Assembly: GCA_002086835.1 (NCBI GenBank)
Contig: MVIG01000035.1
Coordinates: forward strand, 1-53,459
Length of the DNA: 53,459 bases
Origin: Mycolicibacterium porcinum
Lineage (GTDB): Bacteria > Actinomycetota > Actinomycetes > Mycobacteriales > Mycobacteriaceae
Direction: 5' to 3'
The notes below the pieces were generated by a model. The model was not told where the DNA came from and made no database searches. It saw only the letters and a program-made list of their open reading frames with translations. Below are positions 14,822 to 44,812 of the stretch, one piece after another. The position numbers were made by a program, and so were the translations under genes. Position 1 is the first letter of the stretch, and each line of letters starts with the position of its first letter.

Positions 14822-15481
14822 GTGTCTGAGCACGCCTTCAACCCCGACGAGCGCCGCGCCGTCTACCGGGCCATCGCCGAACGTCGCGACATGCGCCGTT
14901 TCGTCCCCGACAGCACGGTGCCGCCCGAGGTCCTCGGCCGGCTGCTGCAGGCCGCCCATGCGGCGCCGAGCGTCGGCCTGATGCAGCCGTGGCGCTTCAT
15001 CCGGATCACCGACGACGCGCTGCGCGGCAAGATCCACGCCCTCGTCGACCAGGAGCGCATCCACACCGCCGACGCCCTCGGGGTCCGCGGCGACGAGTTC
15101 CTGGCGCTGAAGGTCGAGGGCATCCTCGACTGCGCCGAACTGTTCGTCGTCGCCCTCGGCGAGAACCGCGACCGGCATATCTTCGGCCGCCGCACCCTCC
15201 CGCAGATGGACCTGGCCTCGGTGTCCTGCGCCATCCAGAACATGTGGCTGGCCGCGCGCGCCGAAGGACTCGGCATGGGCTGGGTGTCCATCTTCGAGCC
15301 GGCGCCGCTCGCCGATTTGATGGGCATGCCCGACGGTGCCGAGCCCGTGGCGATCCTGTGCCTGGGCCCGGTTCCCGAGTTCCCGGACCGGCCCGTGCTG
15401 GAGATCGAGCACTGGACCGTCGGTCGCCCACTGCCCGAATTCGTGGCGGAGAACGGGTGGCCGGCCGAGGCATCGTCCTAG
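14822..15481 (+). CDS. bluB: BluB, 5,6-dimethylbenzimidazole synthase
   Basis: Flavin-destroying enzyme that turns reduced FMN and oxygen into 5,6-dimethylbenzimidazole, the lower ligand of cobalamin. The 219 residues carry the nitroreductase-fold BluB signatures: RRDMRRFVPD (residues 21-30), APSVGLMQPWRFI, IQNMWLAARAEGLGMGWVSI and an aspartate in QMDLAS, which is likely the catalytic acid. GTG start. It leads a same-strand run (bluB, pxpA, permease, TIGR03943). Its position beside a Zur-like site and near a cobalamin-riboswitch transporter is unexpected for a B12 gene. Confidence 0.92.
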   Translation: MSEHAFNPDERRAVYRAIAERRDMRRFVPDSTVPPEVLGRLLQAAHAAPSVGLMQPWRFIRITDDALRGKIHALVDQERIHTADALGVRGDEFLALKVEGILDCAELFVVALGENRDRHIFGRRTLPQMDLASVSCAIQNMWLAARAEGLGMGWVSIFEPAPLADLMGMPDGAEPVAILCLGPVPEFPDRPVLEIEHWTVGRPLPEFVAENGWPAEASS

Positions 15482-17279: not shown

Positions 17280-17983
17280 GCCGCGAAACCGAGAACGCAC
17301 TGTTGCTGCTGATCGGGGTCAGCACCGGCATCATCACCCTCACCGGCGCCTTCACCCGCTATGTGAAGCCATCGCTGCTTCCCTATCTCGCGGCTACCTC
17401 GCTGCTCTTGATTCTGCTGGCACTGGCATCGATCGTGGCCGACATCAGGCACGGCGGCGACGAACAGCACGCCCAGCACGACCATGCTCATCGGCGAGGC
17501 ACCACCTGGCTGCTGCTCATCCCGGTCGCCCTGCTGGCATTCGTGGTGCCACCGGCGATACGTCCGCAGGCCGCGTCGGTGGCCGAGGTGTCCACCGATG
17601 TTCTGCGGCGACCTTTTCCGCCTCTGCCCGATGGCCGCGCACCGGAAATCTCACTGCCGGACATGCTGGTCCGGATCGCCCAAGACAGTGCCGGAACGCT
17701 CGACAATCGCACTGTCACGGTGTCGGGTTTCACCATGCGCGACGGTGACCGCACGGACCTGGCCCGGGTGGTGATCATCTGTTGCGCCGCTGACGCCCAA
17801 CTGGCCCGCGTCCATCTGTCCGGGCCGGCTGCCGCCGAACTGGCCGGCTATCCGGACAACACGTGGATAAAGGTCGAGGGCACGATCCCGGTGGGGCAGG
17901 GCGATTCGAGCAGAAGCGCCGTCCCGACGATGACGGCCTCGCACGTGATGCGGACGGACCCGCCCGAGCGCCCCTACGCCTAG
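17276..17983 (+). CDS. TIGR03943-family (YcgQ-like) partner of the DUF318 permease
   Basis: A 235-residue membrane protein with two to three N-terminal hydrophobic segments, a His-rich loop (QHAQHDHAHRR, near residue 63) and a soluble extracytoplasmic C-terminal domain with VTVSGFTMRDGD and adjacent cysteines in VVIICCAADAQL. The GTG start overlaps the permease stop (GTGA). The His loop and CC pair are compatible with metal binding, but no biochemical role is established. It ends in a 4-bp convergent overlap with the FhuF-like gene. Confidence 0.8.
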   Translation: MSRETENALLLLIGVSTGIITLTGAFTRYVKPSLLPYLAATSLLLILLALASIVADIRHGGDEQHAQHDHAHRRGTTWLLLIPVALLAFVVPPAIRPQAASVAEVSTDVLRRPFPPLPDGRAPEISLPDMLVRIAQDSAGTLDNRTVTVSGFTMRDGDRTDLARVVIICCAADAQLARVHLSGPAAAELAGYPDNTWIKVEGTIPVGQGDSSRSAVPTMTASHVMRTDPPERPYA

Positions 17984-18639
17984 CCGCGTGGTCTCGTGAG
18001 CGCGCAGTCACCACAGTTGGAGCCGCCGGGCACCCGGTAGTAGAGACAACAACTGCGACGGCGGAAGGTGAGACCACTCAGGTAGCCGGTGCCGCCCAGG
18101 TCTCCTGTCGCCAAAAGGGATTCGGTGAGACTACGGACGTCTTCGGCCAATTCCGGTCGCACCCCGGCGAACTCGTGTGCGGCCGCCACCAGAGCCGCAG
18201 CGGCGTTGCCGTACAGCAGCCGCGGAGCCATCTTGACCCGCAAGCCGGCGGCCAGCGGTTCGAGGTGCTCGGTGATCACCCTGCGGTACAGCTGCTGTGG
18301 CAACCGGCCGTCGACGGGTGTGCCCAACGGGACCGGCAACCGGAGTTCGGTACCGGTGGCATGGCGTTGCAGATCCGCGAGGTCGGGCAGCACGCCGTGT
18401 CGAATGGCGCACGCCAGCAGCGGTGACCACAATCGCGAGGCATGGCTGAACTGGACCAGTGACGCCCCGATGCGCAGATCCGCCGTGCGGTTTCGCGCGG
18501 CGGTTTCGGCGACGAGGTCGGCACACCCCTGCTGATAGCAGTGTTGGACCGGAACCCAGTCAGTCGGATCTCCACCGACGGTGATCGCGAAGAAGCCTCC
18601 GTACGAGGCGATCTCGCGGAGTTGCGCGTCGATGTTCAC
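17980..18639 (-). CDS. FhuF-like 2Fe-2S protein in a B12-riboswitch operon
   Basis: A 219-residue protein ending with the FhuF signature: CC at residues 197-198, ten residues, then CGDC, i.e. the C-C-x10-C-x2-C 2Fe-2S site. FhuF proteins release iron from ferric siderophores by reduction. Here the gene is the last in a four-gene coupled operon (GTGA overlap with the ATPase) behind a cobalamin aptamer. Reduction of an imported corrinoid, rather than a siderophore, is therefore a plausible alternative. No signal peptide; cytoplasmic. Confidence 0.78.
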   Translation of the reverse strand: MNIDAQLREIASYGGFFAITVGGDPTDWVPVQHCYQQGCADLVAETAARNRTADLRIGASLVQFSHASRLWSPLLACAIRHGVLPDLADLQRHATGTELRLPVPLGTPVDGRLPQQLYRRVITEHLEPLAAGLRVKMAPRLLYGNAAAALVAAAHEFAGVRPELAEDVRSLTESLLATGDLGGTGYLSGLTFRRRSCCLYYRVPGGSNCGDCALTRPRG

Positions 18640-19421
18640 CGCCTCGTCACCACCCTGGCGGGGACGGTGACCTGTGGGCTTCCGGTATCGGGGTCCGACG
18701 TGATCCGGGCCTGCACCCCGTACACCTCGGACAGCAAGCGTTCGGTGAGGACGTCGGCCGGCGCCCCCACCGTGACCAGCCTGCCGCCGGAAAGCACACA
18801 GATCCGATCGCAGTACGCCGCAGCGAGATTCAGGTCGTGCAATGCGGCGACCACGGTGGCGCCGGTCTCCCGCAACAGGTGCAGGGCCTCGTGTTGATGA
18901 CGCAGATCGAGGTGGTTGGTGGGCTCGTCGAGCACGATCACGTCGGTACGTTGCGCCAGCGCGCGAGCGATCAACACCCGCTGCTTCTGCCCTCCCGAAA
19001 GCCGGCCGTAGCCGGTTCCGCTCAGGTCGGCGATGTCCAGGGCCGTCAAGGCCGCGTCGATGATCTCGAGGTCCTCGACATGGTCTGCCTCGAAGGATCG
19101 CTTGTACGGGGTGCGCCCCATCGCCACCATGTCGAATACGGTGAGCTCGAAATCGCCGGTGGCTTCCTGCAATACCGCGGCCACCCGGCGTGCGGCCTGC
19201 TTACCCGGCAGCTTCCACACGTCGACACCGTCGACCAGCACCCGTCCCCCACTCGGCCGCTGGGCGCGGTACAGCGTGCGCAGCAGCGTGGTCTTGCCCG
19301 CGCCGTTGGGCCCCACGACGGCGAGCACCTCACCCGGGACGACCGACAACGACACGTCGGCGATCAACGGTGCGCCGCGCACCGACACCGACACCGCCTC
19401 GAACTCCACGGCCGCCGTCAC
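18636..19421 (-). CDS. BtuD/FecE-type ABC transporter ATPase
   Basis: ATPase of a class II importer, 261 residues: Walker [13 protein letters not shown]-loop in AVLQEATGDFELT, signature LSGGQKQRVL, Walker B VIVLDEPTNH, switch His in VVAALHDLNLAA. GTG 19421 is chosen because it overlaps the permease stop as GTGA; the frame is open to 19448. Family members move ferric siderophores, haem or cobalamin; the upstream cobalamin riboswitch favours a corrinoid. Confidence 0.88.
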   Translation of the reverse strand: MTAAVEFEAVSVSVRGAPLIADVSLSVVPGEVLAVVGPNGAGKTTLLRTLYRAQRPSGGRVLVDGVDVWKLPGKQAARRVAAVLQEATGDFELTVFDMVAMGRTPYKRSFEADHVEDLEIIDAALTALDIADLSGTGYGRLSGGQKQRVLIARALAQRTDVIVLDEPTNHLDLRHQHEALHLLRETGATVVAALHDLNLAAAYCDRICVLSGGRLVTVGAPADVLTERLLSEVYGVQARITSDPDTGSPQVTVPARVVTRR

Positions 19422-20434
19422 GTCACGGCCCTTCGTCGCATCAACCACAGGAAGAACGGCCCGCCGGCGAGCGCGGTCAGAATCCCCACCGGAAGTTCCT
19501 CCGGCGCCGCCACGGTCCGGGCCACGATGTCGCAGACCACCAGGAACGCCGCACCCAGCAAGGCGGCGGCGGGCAGCGCCCGGCGGTGATCGGCACCGAC
19601 CAGCAGGCGCACCACGTGCGGCATGATCAGCCCGACGAATCCGATGGTGCCGCTGACCGCGACCATGGCCCCGACCATGAGCGCCACGACGACGAACATC
19701 CCGGCCCGGAAGCGGTGCACGTCCAGCCCGAGCGAAGCGGCTGCCTCCTCACCGGTATAGAGCAGGTTCAGCGACCGGGTGAAAGCCAGCAGCACCAGCA
19801 CGCCGACGAGTACCGCCACCGCGGGCACCCAGACCATACGCCAGGTGGCACCGCCCAGACCGCCGAGCATCCACCGCACGGCCGCCTGCGTCTTGTGCGG
19901 ATCATCTGAGGTGACGATCAGCAGACTGGCCACCGCGGCCAGCACTTCAGCCACCGCGACGCCGGCCAGGATCAGCCGCGCCGTCGTCATCCGCCCACCC
20001 GAGCGGGCCAGGAAGTACACCGCGACGAGCGCGAGGAAGGCTCCGAGGAAGGCCGCCAGCGGCACGGTGAACAGCTGAAGCGCACCGGCGCCGAACACCA
20101 GGATCACCACGGCGCCGACCGATGCTCCCGAGGAGACACCCAGCAGCATGGGATCGGCGAGCGGGTTGCGCACCACCGCCTGCAACGCCATCCCGCACGC
20201 CGCCAGGCCCGCGCCCACCACGGCGCCCAGCACCACCCGGGGCAGCCGGGCGTCGATCACAATGGATTCCCTCACCGCAGGCCAACTCTGCTCCACGAGA
20301 CCGGGGGTGACGGCGTGCACCACGATGGCCCACACCTGCCCAGGCGGGATCGACACCGAACCGATCGCCACCCCTGCGGTCATCGCCGCGAGCAGCAACC
20401 CGGTCAGCGCGGCGAGGGTCATCCGGTAGGGCAT
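19418..20434 (-). CDS. BtuC/FecCD-type ABC transporter permease
   Basis: Membrane subunit of 338 residues with about ten hydrophobic helices and the family blocks RLPRVVLGAVVGAGLAACGM and GTIGFVGLIMPHVVRLLVG, the cytoplasmic coupling region of BtuC-like permeases. ATG 20434 overlaps the upstream stop (ATGA); a GTG one codon earlier is also possible. The operon order (binding protein, permease, ATPase, FhuF-like) and cobalamin riboswitch point to corrinoid uptake, though siderophore use cannot be excluded by sequence. Confidence 0.88.
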   Translation of the reverse strand: MPYRMTLAALTGLLLAAMTAGVAIGSVSIPPGQVWAIVVHAVTPGLVEQSWPAVRESIVIDARLPRVVLGAVVGAGLAACGMALQAVVRNPLADPMLLGVSSGASVGAVVILVFGAGALQLFTVPLAAFLGAFLALVAVYFLARSGGRMTTARLILAGVAVAEVLAAVASLLIVTSDDPHKTQAAVRWMLGGLGGATWRMVWVPAVAVLVGVLVLLAFTRSLNLLYTGEEAAASLGLDVHRFRAGMFVVVALMVGAMVAVSGTIGFVGLIMPHVVRLLVGADHRRALPAAALLGAAFLVVCDIVARTVAAPEELPVGILTALAGGPFFLWLMRRRAVT

Positions 20435-21405
20435 CACGCGAACCGGTCCGGGTGCAGTTGCCGGGCCAGGGCGTCCACCGCCCGGCCCACCCGCACGCCG
20501 ACCACCACCGAGGACAACGGGAGCACCGCGAACCGCTGCTGCGCGACCGCCGGAACATGCTGCAGCAGAGGATGTTCGGTCAGGAAACGCTTCTTGTCGG
20601 CGACCGGCTGGTCTCCGTAGTCATAGATCACGACGACCTCGGGCTCCCGCTCGGCGAACTGCTCGAAGGACACGTCGCCCCACACCTTGGGGACATCGGC
20701 GAACACGTTGACCCCGCCGGCGGCCTCGATCATCAGGTTGCCGATGCCCTTGCCGCCCGAGGTGAACACGGTCGCCTCGCCGCTGTCGTAGACGGCGACC
20801 CGCAGCGGCCGGACCCCGCGCAGCGTGGCCGCGGAATCCGCCAGTTCGCGGTGCAGCTTCTCGATCTGCTGGCCGGCCCGGTCAGCGACACCGAATATCG
20901 TTCCGATGTTGCGGATTTCGTCATCCACGGTGGACATCGTGACGGGCTCGGGGCGGCAGTCCTCGATGTTGAGGTAGGTGTGCACCCCGGCAACGGCCAG
21001 CCGTTGCCTGCCGCGGCCCTCTTTCTCGTCGAACGCGCTGTCCCAGCCGCCGTAGACGAAGTCGGGTTCGACGGCCAGCAGCGATTCGTAGGACGGGTAT
21101 TCCTCGGCCAGCACGGGGACGGTGTCGTAGGCGGCCTGGTATTCGGGCAGGATCCGGTCGTCGAGGTAGGACGTGCCGACCATGGATCTTTCGAGTCCCA
21201 GCGCCAGCAGCATCTCGATGGCGTGCTGGTTGAGGGCGACCGCTCGGGCCGGCGGACGGGCGTAGGTGGTAGTGACGCCGCAATTGTCAACGGTGACCGG
21301 GAATCCCGGCGGCGCGTCGCCTTGGGTCCCGGGCGATGCGGCCGAGCCGCACCCCGAGAGCAGTAGCGCCGACGCCAGTCCGGCGACCATCCAACGAGCA
21401 GCCAT
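20434..21405 (-). CDS. BtuF/FecB-type substrate-binding lipoprotein
   Basis: Class III binding protein of 323 residues with lipobox LSGC near residue 18, then two alpha/beta lobes joined by a long helix. Lobe landmarks: AIEMLLALGLERSMVGTSYL, EPDFVYGGWDSAF and EREPEVVVIYDYGD. ATG 21405 is preferred because GGAGAGG then lies about 12 nt upstream; ATG 21417 would overlap that site. It is the first gene after the cobalamin aptamer (21454-21563), so it is probably a corrinoid receptor. Family members also bind siderophores. Confidence 0.85.
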   Translation of the reverse strand: MAARWMVAGLASALLLSGCGSAASPGTQGDAPPGFPVTVDNCGVTTTYARPPARAVALNQHAIEMLLALGLERSMVGTSYLDDRILPEYQAAYDTVPVLAEEYPSYESLLAVEPDFVYGGWDSAFDEKEGRGRQRLAVAGVHTYLNIEDCRPEPVTMSTVDDEIRNIGTIFGVADRAGQQIEKLHRELADSAATLRGVRPLRVAVYDSGEATVFTSGGKGIGNLMIEAAGGVNVFADVPKVWGDVSFEQFAEREPEVVVIYDYGDQPVADKKRFLTEHPLLQHVPAVAQQRFAVLPLSSVVVGVRVGRAVDALARQLHPDRFA

Positions 21406-21453
21406 GGGCGCACCCATCCTCTCCGGGGAGATCCGCCCCAGTACGTGCGAGGT

Positions 21454-21563
21454 GGCGACTGCGGTGCGTATCTGGCTCTCGACTCGTCAGCGGAGGCTGG
21501 TCGGTCGATCACAGTGGCGGGACCGCGCCGGATTCACACCGGCTTCCACGATCCGCAGTCGCC
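21454..21563 (-). ncRNA. Cobalamin riboswitch upstream of the BtuFCD-like operon
   Basis: On the minus strand the element opens with GGCGACTGCGG and closes with its exact complement CCGCAGTCGCC, an 11-bp P1 stem. Inside it has the B12-box core GCCGGTGTGAATCCGGCG followed by GTCCCGCCACTGTGA and the 3' element AGCCAGA. It ends about 28 nt before the GGAGAGG ribosome-binding site of the binding-protein gene. No T-rich terminator hairpin is visible, so translational control is more likely. It begins only 20 nt after the rpsR2 stop. Confidence 0.92.
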
Positions 21564-21583
21564 CTATCGCCTCGAATGGTAGG

Positions 21584-21847
21584 TCAAGCGGGGCCGACCA
21601 CCGGCAGCAGCGCCATCTCCCTGGCGTTCTTGATCGCCGTGGCGACCTGCCGCTGCTGCTGCGGAGTGAGCCCGGTGATGCGCCGGGACCGGATCTTGCC
21701 CCGCTCACTGATGAAGGTGCGCAGCAGGTGGACGTCCTTGTAGTCGACCTCGGTCACGCCGAGGGCGGTCAGCTGATTGCGCCGCGGCTTCTTGAGGTCG
21801 GTGACCGGCGGGCGCTTCTTGGTGTTCTTCCGGGAATTCGCCGCCAT
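21584..21847 (-). CDS. rpsR2: bS18, zinc-independent (C-minus) paralogue
   Basis: Small-subunit protein bS18, 87 residues, recognised from [20 protein letters not shown] and [20 protein letters not shown]. It contains no cysteine, as expected for the paralogue that replaces a zinc-binding form when zinc is scarce. ATG 21847 shares one base with the rpsN2 stop (TGATG). It is the last gene of the rpmB2-rpmG2-rpsN2-rpsR2 operon and is followed after 20 nt by a cobalamin riboswitch on the same strand. Confidence 0.95.
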
Positions 21848-22600: not shown

Positions 22601-22624
22601 ACAACAACTCGGTTGGGAGGTACG

Positions 22625-23815
22625 GTGCGAACCCCTGTGGTGCTGATCGCCGGTCAAGGTGACAGCGACGGCGTAGCGGAAGAACTGGGCCGCAGGCCGG
22701 GAACGGTGCTGGTGCGCCACACCTTCGACGGTCAGGTGGTGTTGCGGACCGTGTCCGACGGCAGCGGGACATCCGACCTCGCTCTCGAGCTGGCGCACGG
22801 ATGCGTGTCCTGCACGGTCCGCGACGATCTGCTCATCCTGTTGCGGCGCCTGCACCGGCGCAGCGACGTGGAGCGCATCGTCGTGCAATTGATGCCTTGG
22901 CTGGAGGCCGAGCCCGTGTGCTGGGCGATCAACACCATCCGGGTCCACGTCGGACCGGGTTATCTCGACGGGCCCGCGGCCCGCGACGTCGAGATCGAGG
23001 CGGTGATCGCAAGCCTGGACGCGACCGTCTGGCTGCAACAATCCGTCGGCGACGAGGAACTGCCCGACGGACGCACCGTCGCCCAGGTGGTCGTCGGGCA
23101 AGCAGAGTTCGCCGACATGCTGGTGCTCAACGAGCCCGACGCCACCACACTCGCCGTGCTGCGCCGGCTCGCTCCCCGCGCGCGCATCACCGTGGGTACC
23201 GACCGGGTCGAACTCGGTCTGGCACACCTGGAACCGAACAGCCGACGCGGGCGCACCGCGACACCCCACGATCCACTCCTGGCCGGCGAACCACCGCTGG
23301 AACCCGACGACGAGGTCATCATCGTCGAATTCGCCGCGCGCCGGCCGTTTCACCCCATGCGCCTGCACGACGCGGTCGACCGGCTACTCGACGGCGTGGT
23401 GCGCACCCGCGGGCGGGCCTGGCTGGCCAACCGTCCCGCCGATGTCATGTGGATCGAATCCGCAGGCGGTGGAATGCATTTCAGCAACGCCGGAAAATGG
23501 CTGGCGGCGATGGACGCCACCGAACGGGCCTACACCGACCCGGAACGGCTGGCGATCGCCGCGATCGACTGGCACCACGAGTTCGGCGATCGCCACATCT
23601 CGCTGACCGTACTGGTCTGCGGCGCCCGGCCCGGCGAGGTCATCGAGGCACTGCGCGGCGCTCTGCTCACCGACGACGAGCTGGCGCGGCCCGACGAGTG
23701 GGCCCACTATCCCGACCCGTTCGGCGAGTGGCACGAAGAACCCTGTCAGCCCGGAATCGACGAACCCGCGACCTCCGCCTACCAACAAGCCCACCAGGAA
23801 GGGGAATCCCAGTGA
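22625..23815 (+). CDS. mrf: Mrf, ribosome-hibernation recruitment factor (degenerate COG0523 protein)
   Basis: CobW-domain protein of 396 residues. In M. smegmatis Mrf recruits the hibernation factor Mpy to C-minus ribosomes during zinc depletion. GTG 22625 follows GGGAGG by 4 nt. The G-domain looks decayed compared with the COG0523 GTPase at 11202: Walker A reads [15 protein letters not shown] instead of GFLGAGKTT, the metal motif is HGCVSCTV instead of NGCICCT, and base recognition is NEPD instead of NKTD. The C-terminal domain is intact ([13 protein letters not shown]). It overlaps rpmE2 by 4 bp. Confidence 0.9.
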
Positions 23816-43695: not shown

Positions 43696-44463
43696 TCACG
43701 CTGCGAGGGACTGCCGTTTGGCCTCGAGCACCTTCGATGCCAGGGCCCCGAACACCAGACCGATCGTCGCCCAGATCACCACCTGAGTGCCCAGCGAGTA
43801 CAACCGGAACTGGTAGAGGTCGTCGGCCGGGAACATCGACGGGGTCTCATGGATACCCGGCAGGATCAGGAAGACCACGGCCATCGACACCACGTAGTCC
43901 GCGGCACCCGCCAGAGCGGCGTTCCACACCCCCAGCTTCGGCGTCAGCCGGCGCGCCAGCACCACCGACCCGACGAACAAGCCCGCAGAGAGCACCACCA
44001 ACAGCAGGTACAGCAAGGTCCGCTGCTGGATGGTCTCCTCCAGGCTGACGGCCGGCGGGTTCGGCGGGTACTTGAGCGCCGGGACGATCCACAGTGAGAC
44101 GAGCATGCCGCCTGCGGTCAGCGCAGCCAGCGCCCGCGCGGACAGGTTGGCCCTGCCGTACAGCGCGCAGAACACGACGGCCAGCAGGGCGCCCATCGCC
44201 ACGCTGAAGATCAGCACGCCGAGGCCCATGCCGATGTTGGATTGCACGCCGCGGGTGAACACCTCGGCGCTCTCGGCGCCGCCGTGCGAATGTCCGCCTC
44301 CGCCGTGCGAATGTTCCGCGGCTTCATGCGCCGCGCCGACACCGTTCTCGAAGTCGATCGCCCGACCGATGATCGGTTCGATCAGCAGCTTCGCCCAGAG
44401 GAAGGCGAACACGCCTGCTAGGGCGCCGGCCAGGATGCCGCGCCCGATGAGTTGTCTTTCCAT
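43696..44463 (-). CDS. cbtA: CbtA-family cobalt transporter subunit
   Basis: Membrane protein of 255 residues with five to six hydrophobic segments. After the first helix it has a His-rich loop (AAEHSHGGGGHSHGGAES, residues 48-65) suited to bind cobalt. It lies directly downstream of cbtB (21 bp). CbtAB are predicted cobalt transporters that regularly sit behind cobalamin riboswitches; here a riboswitch precedes cbtB. Confidence 0.9.
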   Translation of the reverse strand: MERQLIGRGILAGALAGVFAFLWAKLLIEPIIGRAIDFENGVGAAHEAAEHSHGGGGHSHGGAESAEVFTRGVQSNIGMGLGVLIFSVAMGALLAVVFCALYGRANLSARALAALTAGGMLVSLWIVPALKYPPNPPAVSLEETIQQRTLLYLLLVVLSAGLFVGSVVLARRLTPKLGVWNAALAGAADYVVSMAVVFLILPGIHETPSMFPADDLYQFRLYSLGTQVVIWATIGLVFGALASKVLEAKRQSLAA

Positions 44464-44484: not shown

Positions 44485-44700
44485 TCAGTGGCAGGGGAAA
44501 CCGAGCAGGTGGCGGGCGTCGTGCACGAACTCGTGGACGTAGGTGTTGTTGCCGAACACCGACGTCGCACCTTGATCCATGCCGACGAAGTAGAGGGCCA
44601 GCAGCGCCAGGAACGCCGTCAGGGTCAGCCAGAGCACCGCCTTGGTGGCCGACAGGTCGATCGGCCGTGCGTGGCTCTTGCTCGCCTCGGTGGAAGTCAT
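44485..44700 (-). CDS. cbtB: CbtB-family cobalt transporter subunit
   Basis: A 71-residue protein with a single membrane helix (ALWLTLTAFLALLALYFVGM-like segment, residues 22-42) and the CbtB C-terminal His motif VHEFVHDARHLLGFPCH. It works with CbtA in presumed cobalt uptake. ATG is preceded by GGGAAGG 8 nt upstream, within a short palindrome that could mask the ribosome-binding site. First gene after the cobalamin riboswitch. Confidence 0.92.
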   Translation of the reverse strand: MTSTEASKSHARPIDLSATKAVLWLTLTAFLALLALYFVGMDQGATSVFGNNTYVHEFVHDARHLLGFPCH

Positions 44701-44742
44701 CTACTGGTCCTTCCCGGGAATTCGCGTCCCAGTCCGTTTCGT

Positions 44743-44812
44743 GACAGGTAAGGGTCTGACTGTTAACAGTGGCGCGGCCGTCCTGGATTCTCACCAGGTT
44801 CCTTTGCCTGTC
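44743..44812 (-). ncRNA. Cobalamin riboswitch upstream of cbtBA
   Basis: On the minus strand: P1 arms GACAGG and CCTGTC enclose the B12-box core GAACCTGGTGAGAATCCAGG, then GCCGCGCCACTGTTAACAG and AGTCAGACC, the typical 3' element. The listed span is the core; flanking stems may extend it to about 44840. It ends 43 nt before the cbtB ATG, with no T-tract terminator in between, which suggests control of translation start. Confidence 0.93.

Follow-up and report, generated by a model that had tools for sequence, protein, structure and literature searches.

Introduction

Homologues of the vitamin B12 (cobalamin) importer BtuFCD have already been reported from mycobacteria. MSMEG_4560/4559/4558 were named as homologues of BtuF, BtuC and BtuD, with their function left open in the passages devoted to them (PMC8088520), and analogues of btuFCD have been predicted in M. 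abscessus and M. smegmatis, again with the function left open in the relevant part of a 2025 review (PMC12713380). The same part of that review regards the significance of these analogues of nontuberculous mycobacteria for other mycobacteria as uncertain, states that no outer-membrane cobamide transporter is known in mycobacteria, and describes the decyanation step as unconfirmed in M. tuberculosis (PMC12713380). Another mycobacterial route of cobalamin uptake is BacA/Rv1819c, presented in the passages concerned as an alternative to BtuCD-type systems (PMC3603451). The aerobic pathway of corrinoid synthesis, as outlined in the pertinent section of PMC7242693, needs a reductase before CobO. Which system imports corrinoids besides BacA, and which protein would reduce or decyanate them? 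Both questions are addressed by an operon found in Mycolicibacterium porcinum, on a stretch of 53,459 nucleotides (nt) that is called the window here (assembly GCA_002086835.1, contig MVIG01000035.1, positions 1 to 53,459).

On the minus strand of the window, a cobalamin riboswitch aptamer precedes the genes of a binding protein, a permease and an ATPase, followed by a gene encoding a FhuF-like [2Fe-2S] protein. It is probable, short of being certain, that this operon joins riboswitch-repressed corrinoid import to a FhuF-like corrinoid reductase. The aptamer, the operon, their conservation and the repeated linkage of FhuF-like genes to B12 switches, with and without a transporter, come directly out of the computation. 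The importer half, as the reports cited above make clear, is not new, whereas the assignment of the FhuF-like protein as a reductase, drawn from sequence and gene context, would be a new and testable claim.

A short cobalamin aptamer and its operon

The original prediction had placed a cobalamin riboswitch before a FecB-like gene, with a perfect 11-bp P1 stem and a B12-box core, and scoring with Rfam bears this out. The cobalamin model RF00174 is fully covered (model positions 1-189) at 21446-21572 of the minus strand, with 43.6 bits (gathering score 31.5, E-value 9.7e-8), which makes the aptamer a genuine member of this family by score. The 11 bp of P1 are exact, GGCGACTGCGG (21563-21553) pairing with CCGCAGTCGCC (21464-21454), and many core columns of the B12 box are invariant in the aligned leaders. 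The fold energy of the aptamer strand is -61.5 kcal/mol, compared with -47.8 +/- 3.8 for its shuffles (z -3.57), none of 200 shuffles being equally stable. Of the long Rfam consensus insert little remains, 16 letters standing for 55 model positions, and because of this the aptamer looks like the short kind without P8-P12, a kind that we take to be the one named class II. Class II is discussed for the ppe2 switch of M. tuberculosis in the part of PMC11260477 that deals with it. A covariance model of our own (R1) matches the aptamer out to 21582, the window site being itself part of the training of R1.

Across 16 operon-type leaders, pairing holds in 98.3% of the cells belonging to the named structure and falls to 40-61% once the partners are slid. 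Two-sided changes occur in 11 cells, compared with 4.6 in shuffles and 0-1 with slid partners, all of them within two P1 pairs. The other covariation counts from the same leaders speak less well for the structure, since the pairs with two-sided changes (2 vs 2.0) and the pair types (9 vs 10.3) do not rise above the shuffles. The aptamer is predicted to bind cobalamin and to control expression.

The operon itself consists of four genes, all on the minus strand, whose adjoining reading frames overlap. The first (20434..21417) encodes a substrate-binding lipoprotein, BtuF-like, with the Pfam domain Peripla_BP_2; ATG 21405 is its probable start, likelier than ATG 21417 because a relative (L101) lacks the first ATG. 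It is followed by a FecCD-type, BtuC-like permease (19418..20437) and a BtuD-like ATP-binding cassette (ABC) ATPase with ABC_tran (18636..19448), both recognized by Pfam, which completes the gene content of a BtuFCD-type importer in one operon. The fourth gene (17980..18639) overlaps the ATPase gene by 4 nt and encodes the FhuF-like [2Fe-2S] protein with FhuF_C, a proposed corrinoid reductase on the grounds of Pfam, motif and linkage. The original prediction had described a FecBCD-type gene set; the three transporter genes agree with that description, which overlooked the fourth gene, the more informative part of the operon.

A putative translational OFF switch

Between the aptamer and the first gene lies a putative expression platform (21418..21452, minus strand), recognized by conservation across leaders. 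It comprises a CCUC (21452-21449), a hairpin GGGG-CGGAUCU-CCCC (21439-21425) whose loop is complementary to the GUCC of L5 (21523-21520), and the GAGG of the Shine-Dalgarno sequence (21421-21418). The hairpin and the loop pair are kept in 16/16 operon-type leaders, and CCUC/GAGG in all 12 that have letters there; in 27 leaders of the recA locus, every cell keeps the hairpin and 96% keep the loop pair, compared with only 79.8% for CCUC/GAGG. With few exceptions, the same order of CCUC, a GGGG-CGGAyyU-CCCC hairpin and GAGG follows P1 in relatives, including those in front of stand-alone FhuF genes. Folding lends the hairpin no help: the minimum-energy fold of the isolated platform stretch differs from it and is no more stable than shuffles (z 0.28). 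The hairpin as a plain minimum-energy fold was accordingly given up, and it is retained on conservation alone. No intrinsic terminator and no sigma-70-like promoter was found near the leader.

The arrangement fits a translational OFF switch, a mode reported for metE and ppe2 of M. tuberculosis in the corresponding passages of PMC11260477. When intracellular cobalamin is scarce, the leader would let ribosomes start on the binding-protein gene; with cobalamin bound, the aptamer would close, and an L5-L13 loop contact would stabilise the hairpin that covers the GAGG of the Shine-Dalgarno sequence.

What the transporter may carry

Relatives of the binding protein (E-value of at most 0.001) are held by 37 of 118 genomes of the genus, and 14 of these, the window genome included, have one at 48% identity or more. 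In all 14, RF00174 scores above its cut-off directly before the binding-protein gene. A corrinoid importer is the best reading of the transporter, leaning mainly on this aptamer, which supports the corrinoid part of the BtuFCD-type corrinoid or cobalt-related function of the original prediction. It would be a second B12 route besides BacA, riboswitch-gated as first proposed, though such an importer is not new.

The protein sequences are less accommodating. The NCBIfam equivalog models of BtuF (47.3 vs 234 bits), BtuC (282.6/461 for NF007081 and 230.7/334 for NF003001) and BtuD (118.8 vs 281 bits) all remain under their cut-offs, and the transporter is for that reason treated as a probable functional counterpart of BtuFCD and not as its orthologue. 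In a search of the PDB with a profile built from 24 binding proteins, the top matches (4mlz, 4n01 and 4ljs) have no substrate assigned, and iron-named proteins (5cr9 at 1.2e-27, 4hn9 at 2.6e-19) outscore E. coli BtuF (from 5e-13), with haem binders (8e-13) and anguibactin binders (2.6e-7) at lower ranks. Taken by itself, the binding-protein sequence gives no decisive answer on the substrate.

These scores, together with the FecBCD fold families, are what would recommend a ferric-siderophore importer with a FhuF ferric reductase, standing by chance behind a B12 aptamer. The FhuF-like protein also gives a weak match to the siderophore-reductase model TIGR03951 (36.5 bits against a cut-off of 63.85), and the ribosomal-protein paralogues upstream of the operon, which we presume to be under the control of Zur, hint at metal starvation. 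We nonetheless consider this explanation improbable. No IdeR box was matched in the window at up to 3 mismatches from the consensus, and no siderophore biosynthesis gene was seen, by eye, in the neighbourhood listings; FhuF genes without a transporter carry aptamers of their own, and in the FhuF clade of the window, which a deep split separates from the other FhuF_C clade, most members are B12-linked. As for the importer taken by itself, the missing IdeR match speaks against a siderophore substrate, and the PDB profile search does not.

The best NCBIfam scores of all three transporter proteins belong to models of the coenzyme F420-0 importer (TIGR03868 205/392.4, TIGR03869 302.2/437.35 and TIGR03873 257/372.4 bits), every one of them below its cut-off. 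In 197 class-level genomes, 20 loci exceed the TIGR03868 cut-off, and none of them has an R1 match (E-value of at most 0.05, within ~1.5 kb), as against 5 of 10 examined loci below it (L270, L271, L272, L278 and, weakly, L274 with an E-value of 0.0026); these loci were scored with R1 alone, a mostly mycobacterial model. On both counts an F420-0 importer was rejected, and it is hardly credible as an explanation of the operon.

A cobalt-chelate or cobaltophore importer, repressed by B12 in order to save cobalt, would agree with the fact that a B12 riboswitch also precedes cobalt transporter genes elsewhere in the window, and with the CbtA genes that adjoin FhuF in several loci outside the genus. 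This second RF00174 aptamer of the window, absent from the original prediction, lies at 44673..44802 (minus strand, 37.6 bits) in front of cbtB (44485-44700, named by eye) and cbtA (43696-44463, CbtA by Pfam), whose probable role is cobalt uptake. Since cobalt genes of the window are already served by this separate riboswitch, cobalt import by the operon is less likely, and this explanation seems quite remote; the cobalt part of the function first proposed loses ground with it. The called start of cbtB (44700) falls inside the matched aptamer, whose 3' part would be coding.

FhuF-like genes recur behind B12 switches

A relative of the FhuF-like protein is found in 78 of the 118 genus genomes. 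Among the 14 close genus operons, the FhuF-like gene lies within the operon stretch in 12. It is the fourth operon gene in 8/14 genomes (this order being displayed for the window, L035, L042 and L046, and deduced for L036, L059, L061 and L071 from an equal spacing between the binding-protein and FhuF genes), and it adjoins the binding-protein gene in four more (G056, G084, G027 and G099). In G105, G015, G089 and G100, only fragments of FhuF-like genes were matched, which suggests that some mycobacteria retain decayed copies.

A survey of named loci covers the best 80 of 575 relatives, a set that leans towards relatives of the window FhuF gene and reaches from Mycolicibacterium setense (81%) as far as Streptomyces, Actinomadura and Microtetraspora. 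These loci overlap the 118-genome set (e.g., L119 and G001:C206), so that the two surveys are not independent, and their aptamers were called with R1, trained on 22 genus-set aptamers, RF00174 being run on 21 of the 80. Across all the loci surveyed, several neighbours were named by eye from N-terminal residues: CbtA (L208, L213), chelatase/CobO/CobB (L235), CofD (L251), metE (L001), cobN (L077, L078, L083), diol dehydratase (L090, L091) and MRF/pxpA/bluB (L063). A permease precedes the FhuF gene in 22 of the 80, and all 22 have an aptamer. In 34 more, an aptamer stands before a FhuF gene whose strand carries no transporter genes: the distance between the two is 38-69 nt in the 29 that belong to the recA locus, 39 nt in L129, and 0.4-0.5 kb in L155, L170, L173 and L175.

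The linkage extends beyond mycobacteria, RF00174 scoring above its cut-off near the operon or the FhuF gene in 15 of 17 named non-mycobacterial loci (71.6-107.5 bits on the FhuF side, 36.7 in L165, none in L172 and L174). L173 has two divergent aptamers, one serving the genes for binding protein, permease and ATPase and the other the FhuF gene. L063 has an aptamer and a FhuF gene between MRF-like and pxpA-bluB-like genes, as in the window, without a transporter; its leader ends in the apparent opening codons of a binding-protein gene, as though the body of that gene had been deleted together with the next two genes. In another importer family, the ATPase is fused to FhuF in 10/10 loci by gene call (L077-L086; the one checked with Pfam has ABC_tran and FhuF_C), and an aptamer precedes 7 of these 10 operons, CobN being beside the fusion in L082 according to Pfam. 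Behind the fusion in L077-L086 lies a gene for DUF7676 (Pfam-checked in L077); several other loci have similar-looking genes, and PPE-like genes are near several of these operons.

A likely promoter element, TGTGGCAAyAT, recurs at the recA locus. Under a strict pattern, 24 of the 29 loci with an aptamer have it no more than 60 nt ahead of the aptamer (23 at a distance of 11-16 nt); among the 17 loci lacking an aptamer, 13 have it no more than 110 nt ahead of the start codon (11 in the full form). By eye, leader remnants can be seen in 6 of these 17.

A cysteine motif and a clade

The FhuF-like protein of the window scores 34.3 bits with FhuF_C (PF11575; 20.5 needed) and has the C-terminal motif C-C-x10-C-x2-C (CC...CGDC), the four cysteines of which are invariant in 22 aligned members. 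Its 36.5 bits with TIGR03951 do not tell it apart from the other FhuF clade: the four members of that clade tested are also under the cut-off, and therefore the cut-off does not separate the clades. A tree does. Among 77 FhuF proteins, a split with 100/100 support divides 58 rows, 42 of them B12-linked, from 19 rows with 1 B12-linked, in a sample partly chosen by linkage and with sequences cut to the last 205 residues and '*' signs at gene ends removed. The tree left out L079, six motif-less order-level loci and E. coli FhuF, and L087 is labelled 'none' on it in spite of a strong RF00174 match ~2.1 kb upstream of its FhuF match. The larger clade mostly ends in C-x-D-C, while all 19 rows of the other read C-x-[ST]-C-P.

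At the level of the order, the sample consists of those 40 listed hits from beyond the genus that score best. B12 linkage, with CbtA, CobO, CobB or TP_methylase genes or an aptamer nearby, was found in 10 of these 40 loci: 9 of 15 of the 'DC' type vs 1 of 19 of the 'SCP' type (Fisher p 0.0015, with 6 of the 40, lacking the motif, excluded; 0.00015 if those six are counted as non-DC), both values being optimistic since the genomes are related. In the window genome, exactly two FhuF_C proteins were found, the one of the operon and one whose neighbours, according to Pfam, are three diol dehydratase subunits and an HbpS-like gene; diol dehydratases depend on adenosylcobalamin. Finally, 8 of the 17 non-mycobacterial loci have, close to the aptamer or to FhuF, a gene for a small cysteine-rich protein (CRDCCCG...CLDVCE). 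Only in its motif does it resemble thioredoxin-like ferredoxins; three gene-called and probably partial copies have no Pfam match, and one longer copy has neither an NCBIfam match nor a convincing solved relative.

Neighbours in the window and other aptamers of the genome

Upstream of the operon, a gene for a paralogue of ribosomal protein S18 (21584-21847) ends ~20 nt before P1, and S14 paralogues (Pfam) are also among the neighbours on that side. At a greater distance in the window lie a gene for an MRF-type GTPase (22613-23815) and bluB (14822-15481), each scoring above its NCBIfam cut-off. The genome also holds one CobN, one CobO-type and one PduO-type adenosyltransferase, and four ABC_membrane_2 proteins, the class to which, we assume, BacA belongs. 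Its strongest aptamer found (71.7 bits) precedes a metE-like gene, so called from its N-terminus (L001, G000:C47:4557-4796). At another place (L004, G000:C37:198532-200669), tandem binding-protein genes lie behind a sub-threshold RF00174 match of 26.8 bits and possibly form a second corrinoid system; similar tandem genes are present in other members of the genus.

Discussion

How could these elements work together? Under the reading we favour, the binding protein, the permease and the ATPase would import corrinoids in the manner of BtuFCD, and the FhuF-like fourth gene, probably translationally coupled, would provide a protein that reduces the cobalt of imported or new corrinoids from Co(III) to Co(II) with loss of the upper ligand, leaving them usable by an adenosyltransferase. 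Ligand binding, the OFF direction, the substrate and the reduction are all things that we infer. More generally, and with only a little more confidence than doubt, the actinobacterial CGDC-type FhuF clade is proposed to consist of corrinoid reductases and not of siderophore reductases, acting in a reducing, possibly decyanating step between import or cobalt insertion and adenosylation. Its members would be controlled by B12 riboswitches, fused to an ATPase in some mycobacteria, and fed by the cysteine-rich ferredoxin-like protein in some Streptomyces- or Actinomadura-type loci.

Several observations weigh against this proposal. Of the 80 named FhuF loci, 24 have no aptamer at an E-value of 0.05 (17 at the recA locus, 4 of the locus type of the window and 3 others), and none was found before 3 of the 10 fused operons (L079, L081 and L086). 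In L044, L052 and L144, the FhuF-like gene is ~20 nt behind an S18 paralogue, where neither an aptamer nor a transporter was found, as if the gene had passed to the control of a ribosomal-protein operon. One genus genome (G077) has the operon and its sole FhuF-like match elsewhere, and in another (G052), which is 87% complete, the operon is present and FhuF gave no match. In the order-level locus L233, an aptamer leads an operon of binding protein, permease, ATPase and FhuF in which the FhuF belongs to the other clade, possibly an independent recruitment. As to the chemistry, a potential of about -0.36 V, the value for E. coli FhuF, would suit the reduction of Co(III) to Co(II) and not the unaided reduction of Co(II) to Co(I). 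Part of the 24 aptamer-less loci are probably secondary losses, given the promoter-like element and the leader remnants at the recA locus.

The loci without an aptamer and those behind an S18 gene would suit an operon in which corrinoids are imported and the FhuF-like protein, as a mere passenger, does something else, e.g., iron release or Fe-S repair under cobalt stress. Against this stand the independent aptamers of stand-alone FhuF genes, the fusion to the ATPase and the neighbouring CobO, CbtA and diol dehydratase genes, and we hold this alternative to be unlikely, though deserving of attention. If the FhuF-like protein is indeed a corrinoid reductase, a set of actinobacterial FhuF-like genes concerns B12 and not iron, and the gene under independent B12 switches is a named candidate for the corrinoid-reducing step.

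Comparison with known systems

The link between FhuF and cobalamin riboswitches was not found in the literature searched, judged mostly from listings, the mentions in the parts of PMC7689651 and PMC4531530 concerned being incidental. The M. smegmatis and M. abscessus systems, with BtuFCD homologues in one operon, are possibly the same as that of the window; neither a riboswitch nor a FhuF gene is mentioned for them in the passages that describe them (PMC8088520, PMC12713380), and the M. smegmatis locus is not among the best 80 of the 575 FhuF relatives. With the BtuFCD of E. coli, the window operon shares a binding protein, a FecCD permease and an ATPase behind a B12 riboswitch, and the match to BtuF at 5e-13 is significant without being the best solved one; unlike it, the window operon is far under the equivalog cut-offs and ends in a FhuF-like gene.

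The FhuF of E. coli, according to the sections on it in PMC8068687, has the C-terminal C-C-x10-C-x2-C [2Fe-2S] motif common to both proteins and a potential of -0.36 V at pH 7.4. The window protein differs from the FhuF siderophore reductases in falling under the TIGR03951 cut-off, in being linked to a B12 riboswitch and in its last pair, C-G-D-C. By function, the proposed reduction of corrinoid cobalt before the adenosyltransferase resembles that of the co(II)rrin reductase CobR, as described in the relevant part of PMC7242693. The comparison is one of function only, CobR being a flavoprotein whereas the window protein is a [2Fe-2S] protein of another family.

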